From: Planctomycetota bacterium
GTDB lineage: Bacteria; Planctomycetota; Brocadiia; Brocadiales; Brocadiaceae
Length of the DNA stretch: 41,666 nt
Assembly: GCA_016873155.1 (NCBI GenBank)
Contig: VGXX01000008.1
Span: 1-41,666, forward strand
Direction of reading: 5' to 3'
A model generated the notes under the pieces. The model did not search any database. It was given only the letters and a program-made list of their open reading frames with translations, and was not told the origin of the DNA. The position numbers were made by a program, and so were the translations under genes. Shown here in pieces: positions 10,842-39,971 of the stretch (positions are counted from its first letter, which is position 1; every line of letters starts with the position of its first letter).

Positions 10842-12788
10842 TTATTTCGTTTTACGGGTACTCTGGGCTTTAATTAGTTTCTTTGCACGAAAGGTTAGAT
10901 ACCAACTGATCCCTATCGCTATAGGCACAAAAATGGCTTTTGCAGTAGTTAATGAAACATTAATAATGTGACTGGCCTCCAAACTTTCAAAAACAAAGCC
11001 GAACAAATGAATGGTATAGTACGAAAGAACAATCACAGATAAACCTTCTACCGTATGCTGCATCATCATCTGTGTCTTTGTTGTTTCATCCACGCTCCGT
11101 TGAAGTTCCAGGCTCTGCTCCTGCAAAATGAGGTCTATTTTCGTGCGTAACATGGTAATCAAATCCGCCATTTCTCGCCGTATGCCGTCGATACGAATAA
11201 ATAATCGCTGGTATTGGTCGCCAAGGGTATCAGCCTTTTCCATAAAAAATCTGGAGAGCGCCGGATAATTAAACCCGCCGTCGCCTTCCCTCCAATCCTT
11301 AAGAATTCTTCGTATCACATCCCTTTTCAAGAGTGTGTCATTCATACGATGCCGCGATTCCTCAGCAATGCCGGAGATATCACCAAAGTTATTGCTTAAT
11401 CCGTGCAGCCACCCCTTTAACGCTTCCGGAAGAGATTTTGGCAAATTCATGCTAATGATACGCATCTTGGATACAATGGTTGACTCTAAAATATCCAGTT
11501 TGTCCATTGCTAAAATATATCGTTGTCTTTCCACACTCAAGAGTTGATAATTTGTCTCCAAGGTGATAATCTCTTCGACAATCTTATCGAGCATCTGATC
11601 ATCCGGCGATATAACAAATGTATCTTTCCCCGTTCCTTCCACCTCAAAACCTGCTGCAACTTTGTACTTGTCATAGACGTGGCTCATGTATCTTTGCCCG
11701 GGCAAAAGGAGATGCAAGTCTTCTTTGGTGAAGGTCGCACCTGGCACAATCAGGTAACACTCAAAGAGTTTATTTTTATGTACAGGGACGTCTATGCTCT
11801 GAAAAAGTTTTTCTCCATTCGTTAATTTCCCATTAACTGCCGTACAGATAATTCGATACGTGTATACTTCCTGATCCTGTCTCAGTTTTATGGTAACCTT
11901 CGTATCGTTAATAATCTTACTTACACAAGCTGTATCGTCATTCCACTGAAGACCCGACGCCTGTGTATTCAGGCCGCTTGTCATTCTCAGGAATCCTTCT
12001 CTGGCTTTATTTTTATCAGCAATATCCTGCATATAGCCAATTACTTTTATGCGAATCTTAAGCGGGATTGCAGGCGCTCCAGCCGCTGCATCGGGAACTT
12101 CTTCTGCTGCTGAGACTGCTCTCTTTTCTCCAACTTCACTTCGTTCCCTTGAATCAGGAACATACTGGGGCAAAGATGTGTCGCCTGAAACATAACGATC
12201 CGATACAAACAATGAGCAATAACACCTCCCGTTTTTTTCAACATCCAGAAAACAATAGGAACACGGGCAAATAATATCACAATCCAACTGATATTTTCCG
12301 GTAGCCAAACGGCAAGGACACGCCTTATATCCGTAACGCTTCTCGTTAACAGCAAGTCCTGTAAGAATTTCTTCGACTACCTGTTTATCAGGATTAATTG
12401 TGTAGCCGTGGCTCTTTGCCTCTCTCGTCAGCCATTCGCGCATTTTTTCAATGGTTTCGCGATAGACTCCCTCCTTTGAAGATAAACCGGGTTTGATTTC
12501 ACCATCTTCTATTTTAATCCTTTCCTGTTCCTCTCTCAGTGAAGGGAGTTTCAATAAATGCCGCAGCCTCGACTCGTGGAAACCAATTACACAAGTGCCG
12601 TCAATATAGGTTACGGGAAATGAACGTTGTTTACTGAGATGATACGACTCGGCAATGGCATTTTCCTGCTCGGTTCCATCTAACAAATCAATTACTATAG
12701 ATTTGTAATGTATATCGTGTTTCTTTAAAAATGTCTCAACCCTATCACACCAATGACAGGTTGATATTCTGTACACCCTTACGTCCAT
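10842..12788 (-). CDS. Glutaredoxin - ferredoxin:thioredoxin reductase catalytic domain - DUF3422 fusion
   Basis: Three units lie in one 648-residue chain. Residues 1-80 are glutaredoxin-like, with a CHWC active site at C11-C14 and the cis-Pro segment SFPVTYIDG. Residues about 130-200 match the catalytic beta subunit of ferredoxin:thioredoxin reductase, with the ordered CPC, CPC and CYC pairs (C157/C159, C174/C176, C189/C191) that bind the 4Fe-4S cluster and active disulfide. The remaining part, ending in two transmembrane helices (about 585-635), matches DUF3422, a membrane-associated family of unknown function. I chose the ATG at 12788 because it opens the glutaredoxin strand; a TTG at 12806 is possible. 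The fusion suggests electron flow from a ferredoxin through the Fe-S domain to the glutaredoxin at the membrane; this is inferred. Confidence 0.82.
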   Translation of the reverse strand: MDVRVYRISTCHWCDRVETFLKKHDIHYKSIVIDLLDGTEQENAIAESYHLSKQRSFPVTYIDGTCVIGFHESRLRHLLKLPSLREEQERIKIEDGEIKPGLSSKEGVYRETIEKMREWLTREAKSHGYTINPDKQVVEEILTGLAVNEKRYGYKACPCRLATGKYQLDCDIICPCSYCFLDVEKNGRCYCSLFVSDRYVSGDTSLPQYVPDSRERSEVGEKRAVSAAEEVPDAAAGAPAIPLKIRIKVIGYMQDIADKNKAREGFLRMTSGLNTQASGLQWNDDTACVSKIINDTKVTIKLRQDQEVYTYRIICTAVNGKLTNGEKLFQSIDVPVHKNKLFECYLIVPGATFTKEDLHLLLPGQRYMSHVYDKYKVAAGFEVEGTGKDTFVISPDDQMLDKIVEEIITLETNYQLLSVERQRYILAMDKLDILESTIVSKMRIISMNLPKSLPEALKGWLHGLSNNFGDISGIAEESRHRMNDTLLKRDVIRRILKDWREGDGGFNYPALSRFFMEKADTLGDQYQRLFIRIDGIRREMADLITMLRTKIDLILQEQSLELQRSVDETTKTQMMMQHTVEGLSVIVLSYYTIHLFGFVFESLEASHIINVSLTTAKAIFVPIAIGISWYLTFRAKKLIKAQSTRKTK

Positions 12789-12939
12789 ATTTTGTATATC
12801 AAACAATGTTAAAACTTTTGTAATTGTTTCGAATTTTGGATTTCGTGCTTCGGATTTAGCAAGTCCTTAATGAACAAAAATTTACAAGGTAGACCCTCAT
12901 GAGCCTTAATAGCACACAAAAGGGCATGAAAATATATCA

Positions 12940-13066
12940 CCCTCCCTTGATCCCTCCCATCGTTCGACTGAGCGTTCGTCTGAGCTCACGCCGAAGACTC
13001 ACGACGAAGTCAAGGGAGGGAAAGTTCTCTCGCCCCTTGTGGGAGAGGGTCTGGGTGAGGGGTATT
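12940..13066. repeat. Intergenic palindromic element
   Basis: Perfect 11-bp arms CCCTCCCTTGA (12940-12950) and TCAAGGGAGGG (13010-13020) enclose a degenerate internal segment of CGT/GAG-rich units. It is followed by a GCCCCTTGTGGGAGAGGG-type segment ending in GTGAGGGG. It has no convincing coding potential and resembles small dispersed non-autonomous repeats; it fills most of the 290-bp gap. Confidence 0.6.
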
Positions 13067-13078
13067 TTCGTGCCAATA

Positions 13079-13429
13079 CTATAACCTTCTGATATCGTAA
13101 TCGCCGCCTATTTCGATTAATTCAAATATAACCCCGCACATCCGGCATCTGGCCTGGTCTCCGATCCCGGGGTTTTTCCCAAAATTAACTTCCCATCCGC
13201 ATACAGGACAATAAAATTTCACTTCATGTTCCCCGTCTTGAATAAATTGCAGTAATCTCTGAAGACCATTCACGTGTCCCGTTTCTGCTTTAGCAAACTC
13301 CAGAAACATCTCTCTTAACTGTGCGTCGGATACTTTCTCTGCAAATTCATTATATATCCGCACCGCATCCTTCTCGAATTCAAGGTCGGTCTCAATCATC
13401 CTGATAATCGACAAATATCCATGATGCAT
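13079..13429 (-). CDS. Rubrerythrin-like protein: half-ferritin helix pair plus rubredoxin-type ribbon
   Basis: The first 65 residues form two predicted helices with one carboxylate/His set (E in FEKDAVRIYNEF, then AKAETGHVNGL giving an ExxH). A C-terminal domain follows with CPVCGWEVNFG and CRMCG pairs that would bind iron or zinc in a rubredoxin-like knuckle. Ordinary rubrerythrin has a four-helix bundle with two ExxH sets and about 190 residues. This 116-residue form would need to dimerise to build a diiron site. The likely role is peroxide or iron handling. The neighbouring gene 92 bp upstream encodes another single-ExxH helical pair. Family assignment is fairly firm; activity is inferred. 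Confidence 0.78.
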   Translation of the reverse strand: MHHGYLSIIRMIETDLEFEKDAVRIYNEFAEKVSDAQLREMFLEFAKAETGHVNGLQRLLQFIQDGEHEVKFYCPVCGWEVNFGKNPGIGDQARCRMCGVIFELIEIGGDYDIRRL

Positions 13430-13491
13430 GCCTGTATTTCCCCTGTTTCATTTCCTTATCACAAGGAGTTAATTTTATCTCTGATTTTAAA

Positions 13492-13520
13492 ACTTTGCGT
13501 CCTTTGCGCATCTGCGGTAA
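13492..13520 (-). repeat. Short GCAAAGGACGCAAAG-type repeat
   Basis: On the minus strand the segment reads TTACCGCAGATGCGCAAAG followed by GACGCAAAGTT. This phased GCAAAG pattern resembles a degenerate repeat seen in intergenic regions of unrelated bacteria. It sits between the two ferritin-like genes. A second copy was not found in this window. Confidence 0.35.
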
Positions 13521-13521
13521 A

Positions 13522-13761
13522 TCATTTATCTTCTATCCTATCGCTGCCGCTTCCAATCAGCCGTAAAATATGCCCCCGAATGATCTTTTCGTGATCGACT
13601 TCATTTCTGTGAAGACCTTCCAGCAGTGTGTGGATTTCCGGGTCTTTCACGATATCATGCTGTTCCTGATATCGTCTGGTTGCCTCGATTTCTAATGCAA
13701 GCGCTTGTTCGAGTATTTTCAAATCGTTCTCTTTGCTCCTACCCGTTGCATTATCCCTCAT
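13522..13761 (-). CDS. Small two-helix ferritin-like protein (79 residues)
   Basis: Two amphipathic helices are predicted: one with E and Y residues (ALEIEATRRYQEQHDIV) and one with a clear ExxxH/ExxH-type pair (GLHRNEVDHEKII). The PEIHTLLEGL turn between them resembles half-ferritins such as the encapsulated ferritin-like cargo proteins. No encapsulin shell gene or obvious C-terminal cargo tag is visible in this window. The ATG overlaps the stop of the upstream TPR gene (ATGA), so translation is probably coupled. The likely function is iron oxidation or storage after oligomerisation, which is inferred. Confidence 0.7.
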   Translation of the reverse strand: MRDNATGRSKENDLKILEQALALEIEATRRYQEQHDIVKDPEIHTLLEGLHRNEVDHEKIIRGHILRLIGSGSDRIEDK

Positions 13762-14480
13762 CGTTCTCTCCGCTCCATTTCAAGTTGTTTCAATATGCGA
13801 TTTTCCTCAAAAACACCTTCACTATTTCCCACCTTATCGTAAATAGCACGCAGGATACTGTGTGCTTTTTCCGATTTCGGATTCAACTGAATAGCCTTTT
13901 TAAGCTCTGCAGTAGCTTCATCAAACATATTCTTTTTAAAATAGCAAACACCAAAGAAATAATGGCCGTCCTCCAACTCCGGATTAATTTCTACTGCCTT
14001 TTTACACGCATCAAATGCCTCTTCCTGTTTTTCGATTAAACTGTAAGCAACTGCCAGATAAAGATATCCCTCGGCTTCTTTTTTATCTTTTTTCGCAGCG
14101 TACAATTCTATTGCTTTTTTATATTCAACTATAGCCTCAGAAACTTTCTCTTTAGCCACGTAGGCAAAGGCGATATTGTAATACGCCTTCGGTTCATTGG
14201 GGTCTACTTCGATTGCCTTTTTCAGTTCCGCTATCGATTCATCGTGCATGTTCTTCGCATAGTAAGCAATGCCTAAATTAAAATGGGCATCGTAATGCCT
14301 TTGGTTCAGTTCCAATGCCTTTTTAAATTCCGTAATTGCCTCGTCGAACTTTCTTTTGTTATAAAAGTAAAGCCCTTCGTTGTTATGATAATCTGCCTTA
14401 TTCCCACAACCTCCCATTATGCAAAATACCAATAATACTATCCAATTGAAGCCCGGAAAGATTTTATTCTTTATCAACAT
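13758..14480 (-). CDS. TPR lipoprotein
   Basis: This is a 240-residue protein with a hydrophobic N-terminus ending in a lipobox-like MGGC (Cys25), followed by five to six tetratricopeptide repeats covering nearly the whole mature chain. The repeats share the YDAHFNLGIAYYAKNMHDES pattern. It is probably tethered to a membrane on the periplasmic side as a scaffold. Its ATG overlaps the 3' end of the receiver-GGDEF gene by 17 bases, and its stop overlaps the next gene, so it belongs to the signalling operon. A role in presenting or assembling the sensor is possible but untested. Confidence 0.85.
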   Translation of the reverse strand: MLIKNKIFPGFNWIVLLVFCIMGGCGNKADYHNNEGLYFYNKRKFDEAITEFKKALELNQRHYDAHFNLGIAYYAKNMHDESIAELKKAIEVDPNEPKAYYNIAFAYVAKEKVSEAIVEYKKAIELYAAKKDKKEAEGYLYLAVAYSLIEKQEEAFDACKKAVEINPELEDGHYFFGVCYFKKNMFDEATAELKKAIQLNPKSEKAHSILRAIYDKVGNSEGVFEENRILKQLEMERRER

Positions 14481-15456
14481 TTATAGACCCTGTTCCTTCT
14501 TCTTTGTAGTCAGCTATCTTGTTCTTATCAAAATAACATATCTTATTTTTCCCCGTCTTCTTTGCGTGGTACATAGCTTCATCGGCCTTGCCGATTAATT
14601 CCTCCTTCAAAAGCGCCTCCTTCGGATATGATACGACACCAATACTCATGGTAATGGTTTTACATGGAAGCGCATCGGCATACAACCATTTTTTTGTGCG
14701 AATTGCCTGCAGTATATAAAGAGCCACACGCAAGCCGTCTTCAATCACCGTATCAGGAAGAATTACCGCAAATTCTTCACCTCCATACCTCGCCACAAAG
14801 TCCGTTTTTCTCGTCGTCTCTAAAAATATGGGAGCCAATTCCCGAAGCACCTCGTCTCCGGCCAGATGACCATTCACGTCATTGTATTGTTTGAAATTAT
14901 CCACATCTGCAAAGATCAGGGTAAACGTGCTGGAATTCCTTCTTGCCCTTTGTAATTCACGGTCTAAAAATTCATGAAAATAGCGATGATTATAAACCTT
15001 GGTTAGACCATCCGTAATAGAAAGGTGCTTGTAATGCTTTACCATGCGCGACTCTTGCAACAACTTTTGCCGTTCCACGGCTTTTTCTATAATAACCTTC
15101 ATTTCCTCAAGCCCAAAAGGCTTACAAATGTAATCGTATGCGCCGAGTTTCATTGCGTTAACGGCAGATTCGACTGTACTATACGCAGTAATAATTATTA
15201 CGCAAATATCCGGATTTATTTTTTGTACGCGCTGTAACAATTCCAGTCCACTCATACCCGGCATTTTGAGGTCGGTAATAACGATTTCAAAGGGTTCATT
15301 TTCAATCTGTGCAATCGCATCGTTACCGTCTTTTGCCGTTTTCACTGCGTAACCAGTCTGAGATAGCGCATCGAAAAGCATATCACGAATTATTTCCTCG
15401 TCATCAACAACAAGTATTCGCACCCGCTCAACAACTTCCGTTAATGTGTCCATCAT
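14464..15456 (-). CDS. Response regulator with diguanylate cyclase (GGDEF) output
   Basis: The receiver domain (about residues 10-125) has the acidic pair D18/D19, phospho-acceptor D62 in VITDLKMPGMSG and K112 in the CKPF motif. A linker helix leads to a GGDEF domain (about 145-310) with an intact GGEEF active site at 225-229. An upstream RxxD (R216-D219) forms the product-inhibition I-site. It should therefore make cyclic di-GMP under phosphorylation control, with feedback inhibition. It starts 15 bp after the histidine kinase stop, so the kinase is the probable partner. A second ATG at 15453 is an alternative start. Confidence 0.93.
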   Translation of the reverse strand: MMDTLTEVVERVRILVVDDEEIIRDMLFDALSQTGYAVKTAKDGNDAIAQIENEPFEIVITDLKMPGMSGLELLQRVQKINPDICVIIITAYSTVESAVNAMKLGAYDYICKPFGLEEMKVIIEKAVERQKLLQESRMVKHYKHLSITDGLTKVYNHRYFHEFLDRELQRARRNSSTFTLIFADVDNFKQYNDVNGHLAGDEVLRELAPIFLETTRKTDFVARYGGEEFAVILPDTVIEDGLRVALYILQAIRTKKWLYADALPCKTITMSIGVVSYPKEALLKEELIGKADEAMYHAKKTGKNKICYFDKNKIADYKEEGTGSINVDKE

Positions 15457-15471
15457 TTAACTGCCCCTTGA

Positions 15472-17364
15472 TTAAACATTTTTATCGCTCTTTACGGGTA
15501 AAATTATCGTAAACACCGCACCCCTACCTAACCGGCTGTCCACCTCAATGCTCCCTTTATGGTTTTTTATAATATCATAACATATAGATAAACCAAGTCC
15601 AGTTCCTTTCCAGTCCATCTTGGTCGTAAAAAACGGCTCAAATATTCTATCCTTATATTTTTCGGGAATCCCGCAACCCGTATCCTTAAATTCTATAGCC
15701 ACGTTGCCATTTTCATTTCTGGTCGAGATAAATAACTGCCCGCCTTCCGGCATCGCTTGCTGCGCATTGATAATTATATTGGTAAACACCTGTTGTAACT
15801 GTCCATGATTCCCCTCAACCTGTTTTATGTCCGGGACTAAATTTTTAATCACTTCAATCTTATTTTCTAAAAGCTGACGTTCTATGAGAGACAAAGTATT
15901 CGCAACAACATTATTTACGTTAACAGGCACGACTTCTTCGGGTGATTTCCTTGCAAACTGAAGCAGATTCTGTATTATTTCTTTACAACGACGCGACCCG
16001 TTCTCCATGTGTTGTAAATATTTCTTAAACGCATAAACCTCTTCTATCTTTAAGTTTTCTTTTGCTAATGTATCCAGCATAAATTGTGTATAACCCAGGA
16101 TACCTGCGATGGGATTATTCAATTCATGCGCAACCCCTGCCCCCAATTGACCAATGGCTGCTAATTTGCCTGCCTGCACCAACTGATGCTGTTTTTCCTT
16201 CAATTCCTTAGTTCTTTCCTCTACCCTCTTTTCCAGGGTAACGTTTAACAAACTAATCTTATTAAATGCCTCGTGTAACTCTTCTGTTTTGCCTTGCAGT
16301 TCTTGATGCGCTTTATTTAAACGCATTAACATATCATTGAAAGCCGCCCCTAATAAGCCGATTTCGTCCCTGCTTTTTACACTCGCTTTGTAACTCAAAT
16401 CGCCATTGGACACCCTGGACATTCCATGTATTAAAGTCCGTATCGGTTTTACTATACTTCCGGACAAGAAAATGCTTATGAATACTACCAGGAAAAGACC
16501 GATAATTAAAACGTATGTAACATCATATTTTAACTTCGATAAATTAGACAAGGCATCTCTTTTCTCCTGCACAACAATAATCCGCCATTCAGGCAACTCA
16601 TACTCCGTCGTGCTGGAATATTTTTCAGCGCTGTAAAAAAGCGTCTCTGAACCCGAATCAGAAGAATCTATAACCCCGGACTTTTTCTCCGGATCAAATG
16701 GCGCCTGCCTGAACAACATTTTTTTCTCCGGATGAGCAACATAGTATCGCCGGTCATTTATAATCGTAACAAAACCCGTATTCCCAATCGTAATACTATC
16801 CACAATCTCCCACAAACGCTCCATATTAAGTTGTCCGACCAGCGCAGCATATATTTTCCCATTTTCATCTATTAAAGGAACCGAAATGGCAAGAACAACC
16901 TTATAAGGGTCGAGAATGACATGGGCATCTGATACAAATACATTCCCTTTTACTGCTTCAAGAAACCACTTTTTAGATCTCCATTCTCCCCGGTAATTGT
17001 ATGTGGTAGAGGTTATTACTCGACCTTGAGTATTGATCATGGTAATGTCTTCAAAACGTTTGTAATAATCCTGGATTTTTCTCATTGCCAATAACTTTTT
17101 ATCTGCATGTATCCCCGAATTCTTCATGTCTCCACTTTCCGCCAGCACCTTCATATCGGCTACACAACTACTCATAAAACGACCTACTTCTTCCCCGGTA
17201 TTTTTAGCTAACAACCCAAGATTATTACAGGCATCGTCTCGTATAAGGCCTTCAGTATATTTAAACAAAAAGAGTATCCCTATAAATAGGGGTAAAAGTC
17301 CTACCAGTACAAAAGGAAGGGCTATTTTGAATCCTAATTTTCTAAAGAAGCTTATATTCCCCAA
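15472..17364 (-). CDS. Cache-domain sensor histidine kinase
   Basis: This is a 630-residue inner-membrane kinase. A first transmembrane helix (about 11-35) and a second (about 284-303) enclose a double-Cache-like periplasmic sensor (about 38-270; for example GEWRSKKWFLEAVKG and VLAISVPLIDENGKIYAALVG). Then come a HAMP domain (300-352), a coiled coil, a HisKA domain with H413 in GAGVAHELNNPIAG, and a HATPase with N533 (IINAQQA), DTGCGIP and GTGLGLS boxes. It has no receiver of its own. The TTG start at 17364 has AAAGGA upstream. It lies nine bases after a PotD-like binding-protein gene and 15 bases before its likely response regulator. The ligand may be delivered by the binding protein. Confidence 0.92.
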   Translation of the reverse strand: MGNISFFRKLGFKIALPFVLVGLLPLFIGILFLFKYTEGLIRDDACNNLGLLAKNTGEEVGRFMSSCVADMKVLAESGDMKNSGIHADKKLLAMRKIQDYYKRFEDITMINTQGRVITSTTYNYRGEWRSKKWFLEAVKGNVFVSDAHVILDPYKVVLAISVPLIDENGKIYAALVGQLNMERLWEIVDSITIGNTGFVTIINDRRYYVAHPEKKMLFRQAPFDPEKKSGVIDSSDSGSETLFYSAEKYSSTTEYELPEWRIIVVQEKRDALSNLSKLKYDVTYVLIIGLFLVVFISIFLSGSIVKPIRTLIHGMSRVSNGDLSYKASVKSRDEIGLLGAAFNDMLMRLNKAHQELQGKTEELHEAFNKISLLNVTLEKRVEERTKELKEKQHQLVQAGKLAAIGQLGAGVAHELNNPIAGILGYTQFMLDTLAKENLKIEEVYAFKKYLQHMENGSRRCKEIIQNLLQFARKSPEEVVPVNVNNVVANTLSLIERQLLENKIEVIKNLVPDIKQVEGNHGQLQQVFTNIIINAQQAMPEGGQLFISTRNENGNVAIEFKDTGCGIPEKYKDRIFEPFFTTKMDWKGTGLGLSICYDIIKNHKGSIEVDSRLGRGAVFTIILPVKSDKNV

Positions 17365-17373
17365 TTTTATCCT

Positions 17374-18465
17374 TTAGTTTGAAAGTAGTTCCGTCCAACA
17401 TTCGTTGAACTTTTTCTGAACATCGGGTAGTAGAATCTTATAAAATTCCAACTTATTAATTGTTCTTTTGTCTATAAAAACGTAAGAATTTTTTAATATT
17501 TCTTTCTTTACATAGCGCCATGCCTTTCTATTACAACTGGCATAATATGAGTAATTGGTCTGCCGGGCGCTGATTTCCGGACGAAGCATAAAATTGATAA
17601 AACTTTCAGCAAGTTGCTTGTTTCTTGCTCCTGCAGGAATAACCACGACATCAACCCAGAAACTCGTACCTTCTTTAGGTACTATAAATTTTATGTTGTT
17701 ATCTTCATCATTAAGTATGGCTGCATCTCCGTTATAACACTGGGCAATCCATAATGTTTCGTTTTTCAACTTTTCCCTAATCTCATTATAAGCTATGAAG
17801 CATTCATTATGGAGGAGAGGTTTCAGTTCCTTTAGTATCTTTAGCGTTGCGTCCAACTCGCCGGGGTTTTGTGGATTTAATTGATACCCCAACAGTTTCA
17901 ACCCAACGGACATAACTTCATAGGGATCATTCACCAACGCCGTATGTCCTTTATATTTCGCGTCCCAGAAAATACGCCAGCTGTCAACGGTGTCCTTTAC
18001 GTATTTTGCATTATATGCAATACCGGTAACCCCCCAGTCAATGGGGACACAATACCCCTTCCATTTATTTATAATAGTCCTGAACCTTGCATTAAGATTA
18101 CGCAAATTGGGAATATCCGCCCCGTCAAATTTCAGCAGCAATTTAGATTTTATCATTGCATCCATCGACCCCTCACTTGGGAAAACAAGATCGTACCTGC
18201 CCGGTTCAGACTGGACTAAAGAGTACATAGCGTCTTCAAGATCATAGAAATCGACATTCACCTTAACATGAAATTCTTTTTCAAAATCTGAAACAATCTC
18301 AGGGTCAAGATAATCCATCCATGTATACACATTAAGTATGGATGAATTGTCCGTGGTACTTTTTGATGTGTCCGATTGGAGAACCTTTAGTTCTAACCCA
18401 AATATATTTTGAACCATGAATACCAGGGTTACAATAAAGAAAACGTATGCAACTCTTTTTGTCAT
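17374..18465 (-). CDS. PotD-like polyamine-type periplasmic binding protein (kinase-linked)
   Basis: This is a periplasmic substrate-binding protein of the spermidine/putrescine family with an N-terminal signal or anchor segment (VAYVFFIVTLVFMVQ). Compared from memory with E. coli PotD, several polyamine-contact positions are kept: Trp and Tyr in VYTWMDYL, Ser in FPSEGS, Asp and Glu in NDPYEV, and Trp-x-Asp in SFWVDV. The PotD Trp229 region reads CYNGD, and Tyr85 is not kept. No potABC genes are adjacent; instead the gene is followed after nine bases by a Cache histidine kinase. This suggests a sensing role, as for NspS of Vibrio cholerae. A transporter encoded elsewhere is the alternative. 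ATG 18465 is preferred; GTG 18468 would add one residue. Confidence 0.85.
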   Translation of the reverse strand: MTKRVAYVFFIVTLVFMVQNIFGLELKVLQSDTSKSTTDNSSILNVYTWMDYLDPEIVSDFEKEFHVKVNVDFYDLEDAMYSLVQSEPGRYDLVFPSEGSMDAMIKSKLLLKFDGADIPNLRNLNARFRTIINKWKGYCVPIDWGVTGIAYNAKYVKDTVDSWRIFWDAKYKGHTALVNDPYEVMSVGLKLLGYQLNPQNPGELDATLKILKELKPLLHNECFIAYNEIREKLKNETLWIAQCYNGDAAILNDEDNNIKFIVPKEGTSFWVDVVVIPAGARNKQLAESFINFMLRPEISARQTNYSYYASCNRKAWRYVKKEILKNSYVFIDKRTINKLEFYKILLPDVQKKFNECWTELLSN

Positions 18466-18473
18466 CACAATTA

Positions 18474-18938
18474 TTAACGTAAAGATGGTTTTGGTTTTAA
18501 TTCGGCAAGTTGACTAAGAAAAGGCAGGTATTTCCACTGATAATTATATTTTTTACTCAACTCCTTAATCATGCGATGATACTTTTCATACAGATCGTAC
18601 AAAATTTCTTTGTAGTGAGGATTACAATAAAAAATACGGCATCCAAGTGTTCGTAAGTCCCGGATACTGCATTCATTGTCCTTCAGAAAAGGACAAACAT
18701 TGTCAGAAACATTGAAGTCCGGCACTTCCACGTTCTGCGTAATATAGTCAACCTCAATACTGCTGGTATAGAGGACATGACCAAACGTGCTGAAATTACA
18801 ACACGTTCCACACGTGTTACAACCGGGGTTTAACTGTGCTAACTCTTTTTCTAAACACTGATATAATAGTGACAATTCGGAATAGAGATTTTCCTGCACT
18901 ACTTCCCGTGTTGTCATATTAGCCAAAACGTCCTTCAT
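18474..18938 (-). CDS. YkgJ-family cysteine-cluster protein (second of tandem pair)
   Basis: This 154-residue protein contains the CxxCxxCC signature (CNTCGTCC) and downstream Cys residues in VCPFLKDNECSIRD and LGCRIFYCNP. These are hallmarks of the YkgJ/UPF0153 metal-chelating family. Biochemical function is not established; zinc or iron-sulfur binding is expected. A charged helical tail follows (YEKYHRMIKELSKKYNYQW). The start overlaps the preceding YkgJ gene by 20 bases and the stop lies nine bases before the PotD-like ATG, so the gene is probably translated in series with the sensing operon. Confidence 0.85.
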   Translation of the reverse strand: MKDVLANMTTREVVQENLYSELSLLYQCLEKELAQLNPGCNTCGTCCNFSTFGHVLYTSSIEVDYITQNVEVPDFNVSDNVCPFLKDNECSIRDLRTLGCRIFYCNPHYKEILYDLYEKYHRMIKELSKKYNYQWKYLPFLSQLAELKPKPSLR

Positions 18939-19434
18939 ATGTTTTTAAATTGTCCTGTATATCCTTTAAGGTATGCAATTTTCCTTTATCCACACCGGGA
19001 CATGTATTTTTCAATTTTTCCCACTCTGACCTGTTTTCCAGATTCGATCCCCAGAATGGAAATGCCTTACACTGACAAGGTCTGACGTCGTAAATCTTGC
19101 ATCCGTTATCGTACATAATACAATCGCCGTTACCGTACTCAACCAGACTACACCAGCCATTAAAACTCCTCAAATAATATTTGGCAAATGCGTCCTGCGT
19201 AATACCCAGAAACGATGATATTCTTTCTACTTCTTTTTTATTGACCCATATCACACCAGGTTCACCGCGACAGCACCTGCCGCATCGCTGACATTCGAAT
19301 TTGAGCCCTTCTTTGAACCATGGTAGTGTACTACTTTGAACACCCTTGTTTTTGTCAGATTTTACGTTATCCATATTCAAATCTCTTATAGTATTGCTCT
19401 GTAAAAACTTCTTTTCCCCATTCCCTGCTTTCAC
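18919..19434 (-). CDS. YkgJ-family cysteine-cluster protein (first of tandem pair)
   Basis: The protein carries the CxxCxxCC motif in CQRCGRCCRGEPGVIWV, followed by CIMYDNGCKIYDVRPCQCKA and a further Cys in LKNTCPGV. It is closer to the canonical YkgJ pattern than its downstream neighbour. The role is probably metal binding in the cytoplasm; no signal peptide is evident. The start is uncertain: GTG at 19434 or ATG at 19374, because the first 20 residues look unconserved and neither has a strong ribosome-binding site. It overlaps the second YkgJ gene. Confidence 0.83.
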   Translation of the reverse strand: MKAGNGEKKFLQSNTIRDLNMDNVKSDKNKGVQSSTLPWFKEGLKFECQRCGRCCRGEPGVIWVNKKEVERISSFLGITQDAFAKYYLRSFNGWCSLVEYGNGDCIMYDNGCKIYDVRPCQCKAFPFWGSNLENRSEWEKLKNTCPGVDKGKLHTLKDIQDNLKTYEGRFG

Positions 19435-33490: not shown

Positions 33491-34492
33491 ATGTTATCTC
33501 CGCAACTCATAGAAGAAAAAGAGCATAACCCGTTAATCCTTATCGTTGACGACATTGAAGCGCATGCAGAGCTTATGGAAGCTTTCCTGATAAGGGAGGG
33601 TTATAACGTTCAGGCTACCACGAATGCTCAAGAGGCAATTCGATTCACAAAAAACCTTTCTCCGGATTTAGCTATTCTGGATGTTATGATGCCCGGCATG
33701 AATGGCTATGATTTATGTAAAAGCCTGAAGTCGTTGTCAGGCAGGAAGTTTTTCCCCATCATTCTTCTAACCGGTTTAGACCAGCTTGAGAACAAAATAA
33801 CCGGTATCGAAGCCGGGGCTGATGACTTTTTTAGCAAGCCCTTCAACAGTATCGAACTCACAACAAAGATTCGTTCCCTCATCAAACTTAAAAGATTACA
33901 AGACGAGCTTGATCATTCAGAAGACATAATCCTTACACTTGCAGTTGCTATTGAAGCAAAAGATCCTTATACAAAAGGCCATTCAGAAAGGGTTAGCAAC
34001 CTCTCAAAAAAGCTTGCCATATTTATAGGACTTTCTGAAGCAGAATCAATTATTATCAAAAAGGCTGCTACACTGCATGATATCGGCAAGATAGGGTTAA
34101 AGGAAGACATACTTCACAAAAGAGGACCTCTTCAAAAAAGCGAGTTAGAGTTAATCAGGAGACATCCGACAATTGGTGAAGATATATGCAAACCTCTGCA
34201 TTCACTGAAGCAAATTCTTCCTGGTATAAGACATCACCACGAAAGATGGGACGGAAGGGGTTATCCGGACAGACTAAAAGGCGAAGATATACCCATTATC
34301 GCCAGAATCATAAGCGTTATAGATAGTTTTGACGTAATTGTTTCAGAACGGCCATACAGAAGAAGCTACAGTATAAGTGCGGCAATACATCTTATGAACA
34401 ATGAAAAGTTATCAGGCCAGTGGGACCCATGGCTCGTAGAGAAGTTCATCACGATGATGGAAAATGACACTTTGATTCATAAATGGGAATAA
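33491..34492 (+). CDS. Response regulator with HD-GYP cyclic di-GMP phosphodiesterase
   Basis: The receiver domain (about residues 14-130) has D20/D21, phospho-acceptor D64 in LAILDVMMPGMNG and a KPF Lys. The HD-GYP domain spans about 140-325, with HD in ATLHDIGKIG (196-202) and HHERWDGRGYP containing H249/H250 and the GYP signature. It should degrade c-di-GMP under phosphorylation control, opposing the GGDEF enzyme at 14464-15456. It lies 72 bp upstream of a hybrid histidine kinase on the same strand, a probable partner. ATG 33491 is used; no strong ribosome-binding site is obvious. Confidence 0.92.
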   Translation: MLSPQLIEEKEHNPLILIVDDIEAHAELMEAFLIREGYNVQATTNAQEAIRFTKNLSPDLAILDVMMPGMNGYDLCKSLKSLSGRKFFPIILLTGLDQLENKITGIEAGADDFFSKPFNSIELTTKIRSLIKLKRLQDELDHSEDIILTLAVAIEAKDPYTKGHSERVSNLSKKLAIFIGLSEAESIIIKKAATLHDIGKIGLKEDILHKRGPLQKSELELIRRHPTIGEDICKPLHSLKQILPGIRHHHERWDGRGYPDRLKGEDIPIIARIISVIDSFDVIVSERPYRRSYSISAAIHLMNNEKLSGQWDPWLVEKFITMMENDTLIHKWE

Positions 34493-38510: not shown

Positions 38511-38828
38511 CTATGAATTTTTACGCCTTTTTTTCAGCAGATATCCTACAAATACTGTAATTCCAAACACAACTAACACTCCAATAATACCTGCGTATCG
38601 TTTGGTATCAAATTTGTGTTTTATAGCAGGTACCGTATACCCCGGCAGAAGAACATCCACCGAAGATTTGAAGTCATCTTTTTTGATAAATCCCACCGTA
38701 TGTTTTGACACCTTTTCAAGCCCATCAGGCATCTGCGAGGTAAATGGTACAATGAGCAGTATGAGTCCTACAATAAAGGATAACCCAAACACTACAAACA
38801 ACGGTATTTTATTTTTAGTTAGCTTCAT
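38511..38828 (-). CDS. PDGLE-domain membrane protein (CbiN-like)
   Basis: This 105-residue protein has an N-terminal transmembrane helix (FVVFGLSFIVGLILLIVPF), then the defining PDGLEKVSKHTVGF motif, a YTVPAI segment, and a C-terminal transmembrane helix (GIIGVLVVFGITVFVGYLL) with a basic tail. PDGLE domains normally accompany CbiM-type cobalt/nickel ECF transporters. No cbiM, cbiQ or cbiO is visible here; the upstream genes encode a PotD-like protein and an outer-membrane barrel. It starts 28 bases after the PotD gene. The metal role is possible but not supported by neighbours. Confidence 0.8.
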   Translation of the reverse strand: MKLTKNKIPLFVVFGLSFIVGLILLIVPFTSQMPDGLEKVSKHTVGFIKKDDFKSSVDVLLPGYTVPAIKHKFDTKRYAGIIGVLVVFGITVFVGYLLKKRRKNS

Positions 38829-38855: not shown

Positions 38856-39971
38856 TTAATATTTCACAAGTTCTGCCCAGCATTCGTTAAATTTTTTTTG
38901 AACATCAGGATTCAAGATTTCATACAATTCCAGTCTATCGATTTCTTTATTATCTATATAGACATACGGATTTCTCAATGTCTCTTTCTTAACAAAAAGT
39001 CCTGCTTTTTTATTACAACTGGCATAATAACAATAGTTGGTATGCCGGGCGCTAATTTCAGGACGTAACATGAAATTAATAAAATTTTCTGCAAGTTGTA
39101 TCTGTTTTGCACCAACGGGGACTGCTATATTATCCGTCCAGAAACCAGTTCCCTCTTTTGGTATCACAAATTTTATGGCATCGTTCTCCTCATTAACTAA
39201 TGCCGCATCGCCATTGTAACACTGGGCAATCCACAATTCCCCGGTTTTCAACCTTTCCATAATTTTACTATAAGGCATAAATCCTTCTTCCTGAAGCAAA
39301 GGTTTTAGCGCCTTTAATACCTTCATCGACTCAATTATGTCTGAGGGGTTAGCAGGATTTAAAGAATAACCCATTCTTTTTTGCCCTACCGTCATTACAT
39401 CGTAACTGTTATTCAAAAGCGCCATTTTATCTTTGTATTTTGTCCTCCAAAAAGTATCCCAGCTATCGACAGATTCTGTAACGTATTTTGTGTTATATGC
39501 AATACCGGTAACTCCCCAATCAATTGGGATACTATACCCCATCCACTTTCTTTTAGTAATTACCCTGAATTTATCTCTCAGATAGCGTATATTTGGAATG
39601 CGGCGCATATTGAGTTTCGATAATAACCCCGATTTTAACATGACGTCTGTTAAAGAATCACTTGGGAAAATTACATCATATCGACCCGGCCCAGACTGGA
39701 TTGTTGAAAACATCAACTCTTCGTCATCATAATAATCAATTTGGACTTTAACGTGGAATTCTTTTTCAAAGTCCAAAAAAATCTCAGGATCAATAAAATC
39801 CCCCCAGGTGTATACCTTAAGCACTAACCTATTTTCATTTGTATTATAGGTCTTCGATTGAGAAATAACTACATCAGGTGCGTATACGCTATAAATAAAC
39901 CCCAACCCCACAATAAATATTATCAAATATACCCTGTTTGTAATTAATACTTTACAGTTCCTATGATTCAA
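38856..39971 (-). CDS. PotD-like periplasmic binding protein (paralogue in agmatinase operon)
   Basis: This 371-residue protein is a clear paralogue of the protein at 17374-18465, with long shared blocks such as IPIDWGVTGIAYNTKYV, LWIAQCYNGDAA and FINFMLRPEISARHTNY. The pocket differs: the PotD Asp/Glu pair region reads NNSYDV rather than NDPYEV, and the Tyr in YTWMDY is Phe (YTWGDF). The Trp-x-Asp in GFWTDN is kept. This suggests altered ligand preference. The TTG start at 39971 overlaps the stop of the barrel gene, so translation is probably coupled. No ABC permease genes are visible; the operon includes agmatinase, hinting at agmatine, putrescine or a related ligand. Confidence 0.82.
   Translation of the reverse strand: MNHRNCKVLITNRVYLIIFIVGLGFIYSVYAPDVVISQSKTYNTNENRLVLKVYTWGDFIDPEIFLDFEKEFHVKVQIDYYDDEELMFSTIQSGPGRYDVIFPSDSLTDVMLKSGLLSKLNMRRIPNIRYLRDKFRVITKRKWMGYSIPIDWGVTGIAYNTKYVTESVDSWDTFWRTKYKDKMALLNNSYDVMTVGQKRMGYSLNPANPSDIIESMKVLKALKPLLQEEGFMPYSKIMERLKTGELWIAQCYNGDAALVNEENDAIKFVIPKEGTGFWTDNIAVPVGAKQIQLAENFINFMLRPEISARHTNYCYYASCNKKAGLFVKKETLRNPYVYIDNKEIDRLELYEILNPDVQKKFNECWAELVKY

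Follow-up and report, generated by a model that had tools for sequence, protein, structure and literature searches.

The window analysed here, one whole contig of 41,666 nucleotides from a member of the Brocadiaceae (Planctomycetota), carries on its minus strand, in this order, two YkgJ-type genes, a gene for an orphan periplasmic binding protein (SBP1), a sensor kinase gene, a REC-GGDEF response regulator gene, a TPR gene and a half-ferritin gene (Table 1). SBP1, the dCache kinase and the REC-GGDEF cyclase form a tight operon, with 9 bp between SBP1 and the kinase, whose TTG start is preceded by AGGA, and 15 bp between kinase and cyclase, this gap containing AAGGGG. These genes, their order and spacing, as well as the preceding YkgJ pair and the overlapping genes that follow, agree with the first-pass annotation of this DNA, which overlooked SBP2, the porin and the agmatinase fragment.

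Table 1. Features of the window, sorted by position
Feature	Position	Strand	Basis and remarks
Block of glutaredoxin-like 654-aa protein, two half-ferritins and TPR	10842-13761	-	
Half-ferritin/rubrerythrin-like protein, 79 aa	13522..13761	-	Pfam; overlaps TPR gene by 4 bp
TPR lipoprotein	13758..14480	-	operon neighbour; overlaps cyclase by 17 bp
REC-GGDEF response regulator	14464..15456	-	Pfam Response_reg + GGDEF 5.1e-46
dCache_1-HAMP-HisKA-HATPase_c sensor kinase	15472..17361, TTG start 17362-17364	-	Pfam, dCache_1 9.5e-25
SBP1, orphan PotD/PotF-family periplasmic binding protein, 363 aa	17374..18465	-	SBP_bac_8 1.9e-34 (Pfam)
Two YkgJ-type CxxCxxCC genes	18474..19431	-	Pfam; both match CxxCxxCC
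REC-HD-GYP protein	33491-34492	+	
PAS-kinase-REC-REC-GGDEF protein, 948 aa	34565-37411	+	
PDGLE (CbiN-like) small membrane protein	38511-38828	-	
SBP2, second orphan PotD/PotF-like protein, 58% identical to SBP1	38856..39968	-	
Outer-membrane porin-like gene, 500 aa	39968..41470	-	weak Alginate_exp 1.5e-5; putative ancestral first gene of cassette
Agmatinase C-terminal fragment at contig end	41483..41665	-	97% identical to G040 agmatinase

The response regulator combines a receiver aspartate (D62), a GGEEF motif and an RxxD I-site, as do diguanylate cyclases of the PleD/WspR-like type. GGEEF motif and I-site, already described as intact, are retained in 6/6 aligned orthologues (RKTD in the window, RKSD at locus L039), and the phospho-acceptor D62 is conserved in 6 orthologues. 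Likewise, the alignment of the kinase shows H412 and the N and G boxes to be conserved across orthologues. The window contains neither a hybrid kinase nor an Hpt gene, as would characterize a multi-step phosphorelay; its system is a one-step two-component kinase-receiver pair. In one related genome (G040), the REC-GGDEF gene is split over two frames (L075:5587-6580) by a frameshift or an assembly error.

Linkage, distribution and history of the cassette

Among the genomes compared, which are mostly MAGs, the SBP clade was found in 12/33 genomes of the family and the sensor domain of the kinase in nine. In the order, the kinase sensor occurs in 9/62 genomes, all nine of which are also SBP-positive. 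Fisher tests of this co-occurrence, in which G058, whose SBP belongs to a true transporter system, counted as the 13th SBP-positive genome of the order, gave 3.5e-8 for the order and 5.7e-6 within the family, neither value being corrected for kinship. An SBP gene lies at most two genes away at 10/10 kinase loci, and the linkage is conserved across four genera; the comparison of gene order among relatives proposed in the first-pass annotation consequently revealed the conserved linkage of an SBP gene to a periplasmic-sensor kinase that marks SBP-dependent sensor kinases. The arrangement varies in detail. SBP1 is absent from G042, where a porin-SBP2 pair follows the kinase instead, and G017 and G019 possess a different kinase, a hybrid with two REC domains, plus genes for Hpt and an HDOD-GGDEF protein, with the SBP again adjacent and the GGDEF gene again near. 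The combination of hybrid kinase and Hpt is restricted to these two genomes.

A profile of the kinase sensor, applied to 392 sampled genomes of the phylum, detected the domain in this family only, and related cassettes outside the family were not found in this sample. Two strict peptide patterns, which by their strictness limit the reach of the search, matched, among genome contigs, those of planctomycete/anammox relatives and potABCD loci of haloarchaea, besides a single distant hit in an actinomycete, and nothing else. Other planctomycetes do feature orphan PotD-like genes, but without kinases. In planctomycete family f39 (L110-L118), for instance, the genes of the orphan PotD-like SBPs, some of them arranged in tandem, adjoin no potBC and no kinase gene. 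Overall, the module has a patchy distribution and has frequently been lost.

In G027 and G029, the order of genes is agmatinase, porin, SBP, kinase, REC-GGDEF and TPR, followed by hprt and a protease gene, whereas at the agmatinase locus of G015, G020, G034 and G017 the TPR gene comes after agmatinase with no cassette genes between them. A third member of the genus of G027 and G029 (G028) bears a scar at this site, i.e., the start of the porin gene, 69 bases of the kinase gene and the 3' end of the cyclase gene, at 91-97% identity and followed by an intact TPR gene. Porin remnants further persist in G035 and G012. Judged by these gene orders and remnants, the ancestral cassette consisted of porin, SBP, kinase and cyclase and was apparently inserted between agmatinase and the TPR gene. 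In the genus of the window the cassette is split, with SBP2 located behind the porin and the truncated agmatinase at the contig end, and SBP1, kinase and cyclase standing with YkgJ and TPR genes about 20 kb away. G039 and G041 have tandem copies of the SBP, of which one groups with SBP1 (99/98) and the other with SBP2 (100/100), which suggests that the duplication preceded the split; five SBP2 sequences form a clade with 100/100 support in the tree. Besides, a 162-aa SBP whose middle part is deleted lies between the intact SBP and the kinase in G013 (L032:7673-8161) as the remnant of a tandem duplicate. The PDGLE-type protein behind SBP2 is conserved in the genus.

The TPR, half-ferritin and YkgJ genes had been listed together with the sensor genes in the first-pass annotation. 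Their membership in the module was ruled out by synteny in SBP-free genomes: the TPR gene directly follows agmatinase in genomes without SBP or kinase, half-ferritin is retained without either in G035, and YkgJ genes upstream of the cassette were seen, among the loci examined, only at L028, L031 and L042 (one gene, at a contig edge), all of this genus. Since relatives devoid of the cassette have agmatinase beside TPR, and given the deletion scar of G028, these genes are to be regarded as neighbours and not as parts. The larger block around the half-ferritins is also kept without the sensor genes in G035.

A candidate sensor for a cationic amine

With moderate confidence, SBP, kinase and diguanylate cyclase are proposed to constitute a three-component sensor for a cationic amine. 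The SBP, no longer in the service of a transporter, would bind the amine, a putrescine-like diamine or a polyamine, in the periplasm. With its ligand, the SBP would dock on the dCache domain of the kinase encoded next to it, this kinase would phosphorylate the receiver of the REC-GGDEF protein, and the cyclase would shift the level of c-di-GMP, while the ligand may enter through the porin that belonged to the same ancestral cassette. For such a sensor we infer the ligand, the contact between SBP and kinase, the direction of control, the phosphotransfer and the phenotype.

SBP1 shows homology to SBP_bac_8 over the whole protein, which places it in the PotD/PotF fold family, and its nearest solved structures are lmo0810 (4gl0, 1.4e-52) and PotD (1pot, 7e-43). 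Its AlphaFold model was poor (pLDDT 48) and left out; the pocket was read from a sequence alignment with PotD and PotF of E. coli. In PotF, putrescine is held by the carboxylates D39, E185, D247 and D278 (PMC8666671). All four positions are acidic in 15/15 SBPs (P 0.003 versus other acidic PotF positions), and the aromatic box of W49, Y244 and W270 is invariant in 15/15 as well. SBP1 thus shares fold family, aromatic box and the four carboxylates with the E. coli proteins, but it has no PotABC/PotGHI at its side, and the SBPs form a separate clade on a long branch (100/100). Moreover, S38 of PotF is replaced by a hydrophobic residue or Gly, and the position of PotD D168 is N in 10/15 SBPs, for which reasons the specificity may differ from putrescine/spermidine. 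The pocket as predicted, with the carboxylates and aromatic box of polyamine-holding proteins, suits a dication and does not fix its identity. A sensor of the proposed design might accordingly respond to an omega-amino acid, an agmatine-like guanidine or another cation instead of a polyamine. This is rather unlikely, although the altered S38 and D168 positions as well as the binding of GABA by PA0602 and PA4985, which belong to the same Pfam family, speak for it, because the carboxylates at either amine-holding end of the PotF pocket are retained in every SBP.

The metabolic context adds little to the question of the ligand. Putrescine synthesis is likely, as the genome encodes a pyruvoyl arginine decarboxylase and the agmatinase of a sister genome (G040) passes the TIGR01230 cut-off. 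The linkage to agmatinase was rejected as strong evidence for the ligand; agmatinase is a core anammox gene, present in 47/62 genomes, which neighbours the cassette and keeps its place and its other neighbours with or without it, and is therefore weak evidence.

The ectodomain of the kinase is a dCache domain according to Pfam (model pLDDT 79), with KinD and PctA as best solved neighbours. dCache domains usually bind small ligands, and direct binders such as PctA are among these neighbours; the kinase could therefore sense a ligand of its own, the SBP being a mere neighbour. The high conservation of the dCache block Y121-F133 is in line with this, and a precedent within the same SBP family exists in Pseudomonas aeruginosa, where the SBP_bac_8 genes of PA0602, AgtB and PA4985 lie beside the kinase genes of AgtS/AruS. 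The proteins concerned, predicted polyamine binders, bound GABA/5-aminovalerate and were found not to interact with the kinase sensors (PMC11113362); the AgtS region differs from the cassette in having an ABC transporter. Nevertheless, the amino-acid and amine motifs of dCache domains share an Asp, D173 in PctA and D235 in PctD (PMC10104139), and the equivalent position in the kinase is Q177, with Q or K in 9/9 sequences (K in one). PctA R126 corresponds to K130, and Y144 to H or Y. The direct-sensor motifs dCache_1AA and dCache_1AM are consequently broken, and with the shared Asp lost and R126 being K, direct sensing by the known amino-acid/amine modes is unlikely; other ligands are possible. 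Further arguments against an independently sensing kinase are its perfect nesting in SBP genomes, with all ten loci linked, the loss of the genes as a block and an SBP that has no transporter to serve, so that this explanation is regarded as unlikely.

The proposed sensor requires an SBP without transporter. The genome encodes only two SBP_bac_8 proteins, both in the window, and the absence of potABC, previously noted for the window, holds for the whole genome (96% complete, in 362 contigs): PotB or PotC was not detected in it, and the only two BPD_transp_1 permease genes, i.e., its two inner-membrane ABC permeases, encode a glutamine-type (amino-acid-type) SBP-permease fusion and ModB. A real PotB, used as query against the order's 62 genomes, scored high only in its donor genome, G058; the matches in the others were partial (23-32%), with an E value of 7e-19 at best. 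The near-closed genomes G029, G017 and G027 (1, 3 and 4 contigs) feature the SBP and lack PotB. In contrast, many PotD relatives elsewhere in Planctomycetota and in haloarchaea adjoin PotBC. These permease searches of genome and order ruled out a PotABCD-type polyamine transporter. Given that a permease is lacking genome-wide, that the cassette has defined boundaries and that it is lost as one block, the SBP most likely detects an extracellular amine and does not import it. Two refuting conditions named in the first-pass annotation, a genomic potABC and a missing linkage to the kinase, were looked for and not observed. The amine-sensing phosphorelay postulated there is supported in part, by an SBP outside any transporter, a conserved linkage, retained amine carboxylates and an intact cyclase, whereas 'phosphorelay' is too strong a term for a single-step pair.

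It is very improbable that the orphan SBP has as its partner a transporter of another class or one encoded elsewhere, with the kinase regulating uptake, for although such a gene could be missing from an assembly of this completeness and the cassette includes a porin, neither of the two permeases is pot-like, PotB is missing from the three near-closed relatives as well, and PotD relatives in other Planctomycetota often stand beside PotBC. The same low probability is assigned to a decaying relic without present function, as the patchy occurrence in 12/33 family genomes, the scars in G028, G035 and G012, the broken SBPs in G043 and G013 and the split cyclase in G040 are set against frames and catalytic motifs of SBP, kinase and cyclase that are intact in the window, G027, G029 and G039 at 60-80% identity between genera and species.

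Relation to known signalling systems

NspS-MbaA of Vibrio cholerae, with homologues in Sinorhizobium meliloti, resembles the cassette in a PotD-like SBP that signals and does not import, in a c-di-GMP output, in adjacent genes and in a polyamine ligand, an amine being presumed here (PMC8967002, PMC9993111). It differs in that the direct target of NspS is a membrane-bound GGDEF-EAL enzyme, whereas the cassette interposes a histidine kinase and, as a protein of its own, a soluble REC-GGDEF cyclase and contains neither an EAL domain nor potABC. MbaA is in direct contact with its SBP and is a membrane protein of the GGDEF-EAL type; as the SBP is linked here to a dCache histidine kinase, with the GGDEF domain on a separate REC protein, the cassette is not a member of the NspS-MbaA type. 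In about ten characterised systems, e.g., TorT-TorS, BctC-BctE and XylFII-LytS, a periplasmic binding protein works through a membrane kinase, as would be the case here; these systems use other SBP families. LuxP-LuxQ is a further SBP-activated sensor kinase system. The cassette belongs with these SBP-kinase systems, its SBP being PotD-like and its output a cyclase. We know of no SBP-kinase system in which the SBP is of the PotD family and the receiver served by the kinase is joined to a GGDEF domain, and a literature search, with subscription papers mostly outside its range, found no description of a PotD-like SBP, kinase and REC-GGDEF arrangement.

If the proposal is correct, polyamine-to-c-di-GMP signalling would be extended from direct contact between SBP and cyclase to a kinase-mediated route, in anammox bacteria. 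Aggregation of these organisms matters for wastewater treatment, and their signalling has been little studied. Orphan binding proteins usually receive an annotation as transporters, and the cassette is small enough for work with purified proteins. A broader scenario, in which anammox cells make putrescine from arginine by pyruvoyl arginine decarboxylase and agmatinase, read its extracellular level through SBP, kinase and cyclase and set c-di-GMP and hence aggregation, would amount to a polyamine density signal transmitted by phosphotransfer; it is considered decidedly doubtful.

A second c-di-GMP-related pair lies near SBP2, where the REC-HD-GYP protein adjoins the 948-aa PAS-kinase-REC-REC-GGDEF protein; in the latter, the GGDEF motif has the sequence HGIDSF and is likely inactive.
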